Shown here piece by piece: positions 56,702 to 57,180 of a stretch of 64,000 nucleotides of DNA. Position numbers and translations under genes: made by a program. Origin of the DNA: Tistrella mobilis (GTDB taxonomy: Bacteria; Pseudomonadota; Alphaproteobacteria; Tistrellales; Tistrellaceae). Positions within the stretch are counted from its first letter, which is position 1. Each line of letters opens with the position of its first letter. The DNA is taken from positions 3,413,676-3,477,675 of the forward strand of contig NZ_CP121017.1 of NCBI RefSeq assembly GCF_041468085.1, in the 5' to 3' direction. The notes beneath the pieces are model-generated. The model saw only the letters and a list, made by a program, of their open reading frames with translations, was not told the origin of the DNA and searched no databases.

Positions 56702-56893
56702 TCAGGCCGTCACCGGATCGGTCACCACATCGAAATCCATGGGGGCCGGGCTGCGGTCGGCCAGCGGCGGCCGGCCGAGGCCGATCGGGCGGCGGGCGAT
56801 GCTGCCGGGGGCCTGAATCTGATCGGCCTGGGCATCGGCCTGGCGAAGGGTGGTCATCCGGGTATCCTCGGTGGAAGCCATGATCGTGGTCAT
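56702..56893 (-). CDS. small ORF downstream of the aromatic attenuator
   Basis: A 63-codon ORF starting at ATG 56893 (or ATG 56881), reading MTTIMAS at its start and ending DPVTA. No family is recognised. It has no signal peptide and little secondary-structure signal; the middle is rich in Arg, Pro and Ala. Its interest is position: it begins 111 bp after the hairpin at 57004-57033 that follows the aromatic leader ORF. If the attenuator controls anything on this strand, it would be this ORF. Coding potential is uncertain. Confidence 0.3.
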   Translation of the reverse strand: MTTIMASTEDTRMTTLRQADAQADQIQAPGSIARRPIGLGRPPLADRSPAPMDFDVVTDPVTA

Positions 56894-57003
56894 CTGAAGC
56901 GGTTCCGTCGGATCCGGCAGCCTGTGTCGGCGGCCGTCATTTGCAGGGATCGCCGGAACCGCCCCCGGTGCGGGAGGCGGGTTTCGCAAGGCCAGAACGC
57001 GAA

Positions 57004-57033
57004 ACGGCCGCCTCCGTCTCCGGAGGCGGCCGT
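57004..57033 (-). terminator. attenuator-type hairpin
   Basis: ACGGCCGCCTCCG (57004-57016) pairs perfectly over 13 bp with CGGAGGCGGCCGT (57021-57033), with a 4-nt loop. Read leftward, it is followed by TTCGCGTTCT, a moderately U-rich tail. It begins 25 bp after the stop codon of the leader ORF, the distance expected for a Trp-type attenuator. A bidirectional role is possible but no plus-strand gene ends here. Confidence 0.55.
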
Positions 57034-57057
57034 CGATGTCGGGATCTCGTCTGGCCC

Positions 57058-57144
57058 TCAGGCCGGCACACCCGCTCGATTGGCCACCCCCGGGGGGCTC
57101 CACCAATAGAACGTAAACGAGGTATAGGTGCGCGACGTGATCAT
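57058..57144 (-). CDS. aromatic leader peptide (Phe-Tyr-Trp-Trp), orphan
   Basis: A 28-codon ORF on the minus strand, ATG 57144 to TGA 57058. It reads MITSRTYTSFTFYWWSPPG and then VANRAGVPA. Codons 12-15 are Phe-Tyr-Trp-Trp, as in leader peptides that sense aromatic aminoacyl-tRNA. The promoter-like TTGACG/CAGAGT at 57152-57180 would start transcription at or next to the A of ATG, so it would be leaderless, as reported for rhizobial trpL. A 13-bp hairpin follows the stop. No trp, aro, phe or tyr gene is next to it. The function is inferred. Confidence 0.55.
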   Translation of the reverse strand: MITSRTYTSFTFYWWSPPGVANRAGVPA

Positions 57145-57151
57145 GGCCGCT

Positions 57152-57180
57152 ACTCTGATCCCGCCTCGCAGCGCCGTCAA
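57152..57180 (-). promoter_or_regulatory. promoter of the aromatic leader ORF
   Basis: On the minus strand TTGACG (57180-57175), a 17-nt spacer, then CAGAGT (57157-57152); an alternative -10 AGAGTA is one base further. The expected start is 6-7 nt later, at or one base before ATG 57144. The -35 is good, the -10 weak, as in many GC-rich alphaproteobacterial promoters. Confidence 0.42.

Follow-up and report, generated by a model that had tools for sequence, protein, structure and literature searches.

The window, meaning the whole 64-kb stretch of DNA that was analysed, comes from a 6.3-Mb alphaproteobacterial genome of the genus Tistrella (G000, contig C4), and the element described here lies on its minus strand between a gene for a DsbA-like protein (57812-57210) and a META-domain gene (56560-56051, minus strand; Pfam META PF03724, E 2.6e-19). 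A 63-codon open reading frame (ORF), located at 56893-56702 on the same strand, separates the element from the META gene, which is found downstream in both same-genus relatives too (G001 and G002; the comparison set for the leader thus consists of three related Tistrella genomes from one genus). The META gene product looks lipoprotein-like by eye, and its gene is possibly the second one of the same transcript. Neither the neighbouring genes nor their Pfam annotation reveal a trp or aro gene adjoining the element. The surroundings of the element vary: G002 matches T. mobilis KA081020-065, where the element is carried by the 1.13-Mb plasmid pTM3 (NC_017958.1), and in G000 it is located on the 4.9-Mb contig C4. 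In G001 a DDE transposase reading frame (L004:2003-2290, minus strand; Pfam PF01609, E 2.8e-7) ends just 5' of the leader promoter, at the position that is occupied by the DsbA-like gene in the window and in G002.

The element begins with a promoter-like pair (57180-57152, minus strand) that is composed of a -35 hexamer TTGACG (57180-57175), a 17-nt spacer and a -10-like hexamer CAGAGT (57157-57152). The latter is poor, with 3 of the 6 consensus positions matched, and reads CAGACT in G001 and G002, both of which keep the -35 hexamer; a promoter scan did not include the TTGACG/CAGAGT pair in its list. CAGAGT is followed after 7 nt by the ATG at 57144, so that the -35/-10 spacing would put the RNA start at or beside this codon, and no Shine-Dalgarno sequence was seen before the ORF that it opens. 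The leader ORF itself (57144-57058, minus strand) reads as 28 codons and a stop, MITSRTYTSFTFYWWSPPGVANRAGVPA, with phenylalanine, tyrosine and two tryptophans at codons 12 to 15 (F12-Y13-W14-W15). It is the sole ATG ORF of 8-45 codons with four consecutive aromatic residues on either strand of the 64-kb window, and the adjacent Trp codons W14-W15 are kept in all three genomes of the genus.

Downstream parts of the leader, all on the minus strand, can be folded in alternative ways. Hairpin 1:2 (AUUGGUGGAGCCCCCCGGGGGUGGCCAAU, 57107-57079, -12.7 kcal/mol) includes both Trp codons in its left arm and appears also in the minimum-energy fold of the whole leader. Region 2 (CCGGGGGUGGCC, 57093-57082), which constitutes the loop and the right arm of this hairpin, pairs at 12 of 12 positions (two of them G-U) with region 3 (GGCCGCCUCCGG, 57031-57020), giving a predicted duplex of -27.2 kcal/mol. 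Besides partnering region 2 in the antiterminator, region 3 supplies the left arm of hairpin 3:4 (57033-57004, -30.4 kcal/mol), which is terminator-like, has a perfect 13-bp GC-rich stem (14 pairs when one flanking G-U is counted) and a 4-nt loop, and is followed by UUCGCGUUCU instead of a U-run. In silico, pairings 1:2, 2:3 and 3:4 are mutually exclusive, region 1 being the one that carries the Trp codons, and both 2:3 and 3:4 are intact in 3/3 genomes of the genus. The promoter-like sequence, the leader ORF with Phe-Tyr-Trp-Trp and the perfect hairpin had all been placed at these positions by the original prediction, and all were found there, with the reservations that the -10 is poor and that no U-run follows the hairpin.

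The RNA spanning 57144-56990 folds better than expected (z = -4.3; 0 of 200 shuffles equally good), and a 12-base match to the left arm of 3:4, sought anywhere in the leader, was equalled in 5 of 5000 dinucleotide shuffles. The minimum-energy fold of the whole leader, with no ribosome on it, is 1:2 plus 3:4. When a ribosome was placed on W14 (or W15) and the RNA was ended before the right arm of 3:4, the antiterminator fold reached -40.3 (-32.9) kcal/mol. With the full RNA, and the ribosome on either W14 or W15, the lowest-energy fold still contains 3:4, so that timing would have to favour the antiterminator, which needs to form first. Concerning termination itself, no U-tract was found after hairpin 3:4 (the 10 bases that follow contain 4 T), and the terminator scan listed no intrinsic (U-tract) terminator at the element because there is no T run after the stem; the lack of such a tract is a true weak point of the case for intrinsic termination. 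No family of Rfam release 15 exceeded its gathering cut-off in this region, the best being CC2171 sRNA with 25.3 bits, mostly from the GC hairpin, where 75 are needed.

The genus encodes a second leader, in front of the gene for the fused anthranilate synthase, trpE(G) (C4:1866760-1868919 in G000; TrpE-clade3, TIGR01815, 978.7 bits at a cut-off of 739). This leader (C4:1869073-1869199; L088), with the peptide MITMR[A/T]YPAIHGRQWRGPVRPGSPITRV, has in common with the element the start ATGATCACG, the TTGACGG box at a nearly equal distance, the 1:2 arms and the competing 2:3/3:4 arrangement. Its own 1:2, 2:3 (-23.0 kcal/mol) and 3:4 (-28.7 kcal/mol) are made up partly of other bases, and its hairpin is also not followed by a U-tract (the 10 bases past the inner stem include 2 T). 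Local alignment of the element with this leader scored 32, compared with at most 22 in 2000 shuffles; the similarity spans from upstream of the -35 through to the hairpin, and of the 21 bases that open the ORF, 17 are identical. When the trpE(G) leader was compared with 1276 chunks of the window, the element was the best (33) and the next, unrelated chunk reached 29.5, so the case for homology leans also on the common register and promoter. Aligned, the two leaders show one gap of 3 nt within the ORF and another of 5 nt within the hairpin loop, and the common right arm is therefore read in another frame, which indicates that it was the RNA and not the peptide that was kept. Taken as sequence likeness, these data suggest that the element is probably a duplicated trpE(G) leader/attenuator. 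There are differences as well, since the trpE(G) leader in this genus contains only a single Trp codon (RQWR; L088 and L035) and precedes anthranilate synthase. The presumed parent copy is, therefore, itself atypical. When 20 trpE(G) loci from other genera were filtered for WW or aromatic runs upstream, plausible WW or WWW leaders were seen in 8; in the other 12 either no leader was seen or the hits were not credible (L062 lacks upstream DNA). In L052, a trpE(G) leader from a different genus, a similar GGCCGCCUC hairpin comes with a T-rich tail.

The element has been conserved within the genus to an unequal degree along its length. The leader ORF is identical at 87/87 and 85/87 nt in the two relatives, and from leader to hairpin 139/141 (G001) and 136/141 (G002) positions are the same. 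In the spacer before the META gene the corresponding values are 108/129 and 107/129 aligned bases, and the changes in leader-to-hairpin are far fewer than in this spacer (2/141 vs. 21/129, Fisher 6e-6; 5/141 vs. 22/129, 2e-4), and far fewer than in the promoter region too. Fourfold sites of the leader ORF were changed in 0/18 and 0/17 cases, which is only marginally slower than in META (P 0.03 and 0.06). It had been anticipated that an ORF without conservation and with drifting Trp codons would speak against the attenuator; what was seen are Trp codons intact in all three genomes and a leader ORF that is nearly invariant.

These numbers bear on the proposal that a rearrangement left the element behind as the remnant of a duplicated trpE(G) control region, its leader being kept by chance or owing to recent descent. 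The absence of an adjacent trp or aro gene fits such an origin, as does the transposase gene that ends right upstream in one relative, but a relic would hardly be expected to accumulate so many fewer changes between leader and hairpin than in the spacer and promoter region, nor to retain its Trp codons and both pairings in 3/3 genomes, and we regard the relic option of the original prediction, disfavoured by conservation, as very improbable. A purely fortuitous origin, in which a GC-rich stretch happens to contain an aromatic ORF and a hairpin, should also be considered, as hairpins are many in GC-rich DNA, another part of the window gives a fairly good alignment with the trpE(G) leader (29.5 vs. 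33), and the FYWW-x-PP codon string occurs by chance in 3/382 other genomes of the class. It would, however, demand the coincidence of an aromatic ORF that is unique in the window, the 2:3 match, the similarity to the trpE(G) leader and the conservation, and is barely credible.

The 63-codon ORF that follows the hairpin may be shorter than its frame, namely 51 codons if it starts at codon 13 (ATG 56857), which lies behind a Shine-Dalgarno-like GAGGA (56869-56865) and is the likely start. Its codon changes are protein-like: 18 synonymous and 5 nonsynonymous codon differences were counted when the two comparisons were summed (8/3 and 10/2 apart), with a change common to both relatives counted twice, and the five other frames gave 0, 1, 3, 3 and 12 synonymous differences. 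Judged by this pattern, the ORF is very probably a real gene, and likely the one that is controlled by the leader. The label "orphan" that the leader had been given is thus not quite right, as a protein-like gene is located directly downstream. The 63-aa protein has no relative in Pfam, NCBIfam or PDB, and outside the genus it was not found in 190 genomes of the class, nor in a scan of genome contigs with two short peptide patterns; weak profile matches (E 0.007-0.01, 4/190 genomes) have translations that look unrelated by eye. Its predicted structure is of low confidence (mean pLDDT 63) and shows one helix, at residues 8-25.

The sequence that links the hairpin to the small ORF (57003-56894) is 95-96% conserved, on par with coding sequence. 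Two further potential hairpins, GUUUCGC/GCGAAAC and CCGCC/GGCGG, can be recognized in it by eye. Together with the missing U-tract, the high conservation of this stretch would agree with a mode of action in which the aromatic codons still serve as the sensor, while the hairpin affects how the small gene is translated or how stable its mRNA is, or termination is Rho-dependent. The likely start of the small gene and its GAGGA are, however, located about 135 nt behind hairpin 3:4, which argues against such a mode, and it is considered rather unlikely.

The reading that we favour, and hold to be reasonably probable from the sequence, is that the element is a ribosome-mediated attenuator of the Trp type, duplicated from the trpE(G) leader and now controlling a genus-specific small gene, perhaps together with the META gene. 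According to this model, RNA would start at the ATG and a ribosome would translate the 28-codon leader. When charged aromatic tRNAs are available, the ribosome would pass Phe-Tyr-Trp-Trp, hairpin 1:2 would form and region 3, left free, would make 3:4, by which transcription would be ended or blocked. When Trp (or Tyr or Phe) is scarce, the ribosome would stall on codons 12-15 and cover region 1; nascent region 3 could then pair with region 2, 3:4 would come late, and the polymerase would read into the small gene. The RNA start, the stalling, the termination, the amino acid that is sensed and the role of the small protein are all inferred parts of this scheme. On paper and by sequence likeness the element resembles a trp attenuator, and the idea of a Trp-type attenuator, put forward at the outset, is strengthened by two features that were not part of it, namely the mutually exclusive antiterminator and the likeness to the leader of the genus's own trpE(G). 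Three functions had been suggested along with it, and control of the small ORF fits best, because the 63-codon ORF evolves as a protein.

Another of these suggestions, a trans-acting RNA, is the main rival to the cis-acting attenuator. The attenuator RNA of Sinorhizobium meliloti, rnTrpL, is reported to begin at the ATG and to target trpDC mRNA, and its leader peptide peTrpL to act in multidrug resistance (PMC7298713, PMC10117765). By this precedent, as well as by its strongly conserved leader RNA, the Tistrella element could serve mainly to supply a small RNA, a leader peptide or both for action in trans, with no important target in cis. Pairing of the leader with the genome's own trpE, trpE(G), trpD and aroG was, however, no better than with control tiles of the window: per locus, 0-2 of 92-127 tiles were under the 1% level, where about one is expected. 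A trans-acting RNA thus found no support at these four candidate loci. Furthermore, a conserved protein gene lies directly downstream, and conservation continues past the hairpin into it. Taken together, a mainly trans-acting element is possible but seems unlikely.

The cis-acting attenuator can be compared with two known systems. The trpL attenuator of S. meliloti trpE(G), as described (PMC7298713, PMC10117765), has the layout that is also predicted from the Tistrella sequence, i.e., a leaderless ORF at the RNA start, Trp codons, and a stall-dependent choice between antiterminator and terminator. It differs in having 14 codons, whereas the Tistrella leader has 28 and includes Phe and Tyr codons before Trp-Trp, and the Tistrella element precedes a small protein and not trpE(G), and has no U-tract. 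The anti-TRAP gene (rtpA) of Bacillus subtilis offers another parallel, as there too a sensor of Trp supply is reported to precede a small protein and not a biosynthetic gene (PMC11255114). The B. subtilis sensor is a T-box, the parallel does not imply any relation in sequence, and the Tistrella protein lacks cysteines that could form a zinc site.

The small protein is suggested to be made when aromatic amino acids are short, and the prediction follows that shortage of Trp, Tyr or Phe induces the 63-codon gene. Leader-peptide attenuators are commonly taken as markers of a biosynthetic gene behind them. An attenuator that apparently derives from a copy of the trpE(G) one and has been maintained by selection before an unrelated small gene would show how such a sensor can be re-used, and would flag small genes as effectors of starvation. 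One may go further and ask if the duplicated attenuator was handed to a lineage-specific small effector of aromatic starvation, e.g., a regulator of Trp supply and counterpart of anti-TRAP, with the parent trpE(G) leader losing its tandem Trp codons and the sensing being moved to the small protein; this extended scenario is speculative, and its likelihood is low.

As to distribution, a covariance model built from both leaders recovered, by construction, two copies in each of the 3 genomes of the genus and, under stricter filters, no copy in the other 364 of 367 genomes of the class. The exact FYWW-x-PP codon pattern was present in 6 of 385 class genomes, 3 of them being the genus itself; the remaining 3 are embedded in longer frames that encode other proteins, either antisense or in another frame, and were taken for chance. 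DNA matches of the region elsewhere (13 loci, E 1e-5 to 1e-3) include neither the 63-aa peptide nor the leader and were taken for chance GC matches (rematching one of them, L007, gave none), and two viral contigs that matched the leader pattern contain, by eye, no Trp-rich peptide in frame with the ATG. The titles and abstract beginnings that were searched describe neither this element nor any attenuator in Tistrella. It had been proposed that related genomes be searched for the same leader next to trpE or aro genes. A similar leader precedes the trpE(G) of the genus, but none was accepted before trpE, trpD or the DAHP synthase gene. No attenuator was seen before the stand-alone trpE (L024), and before trpD and the DAHP synthase gene, examined in three genomes, one candidate ORF appeared in each of 2 of 6 loci (L077 and L082), neither recurring at the loci of the relatives. 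There are three chorismate-binding (TrpE/PabB-type) genes in G000 (C4:2384808, 3936187 and 1867411), and trpD lies about 7 kb past the stand-alone trpE, after a frame that by eye is apparently a trpG-type amidotransferase.
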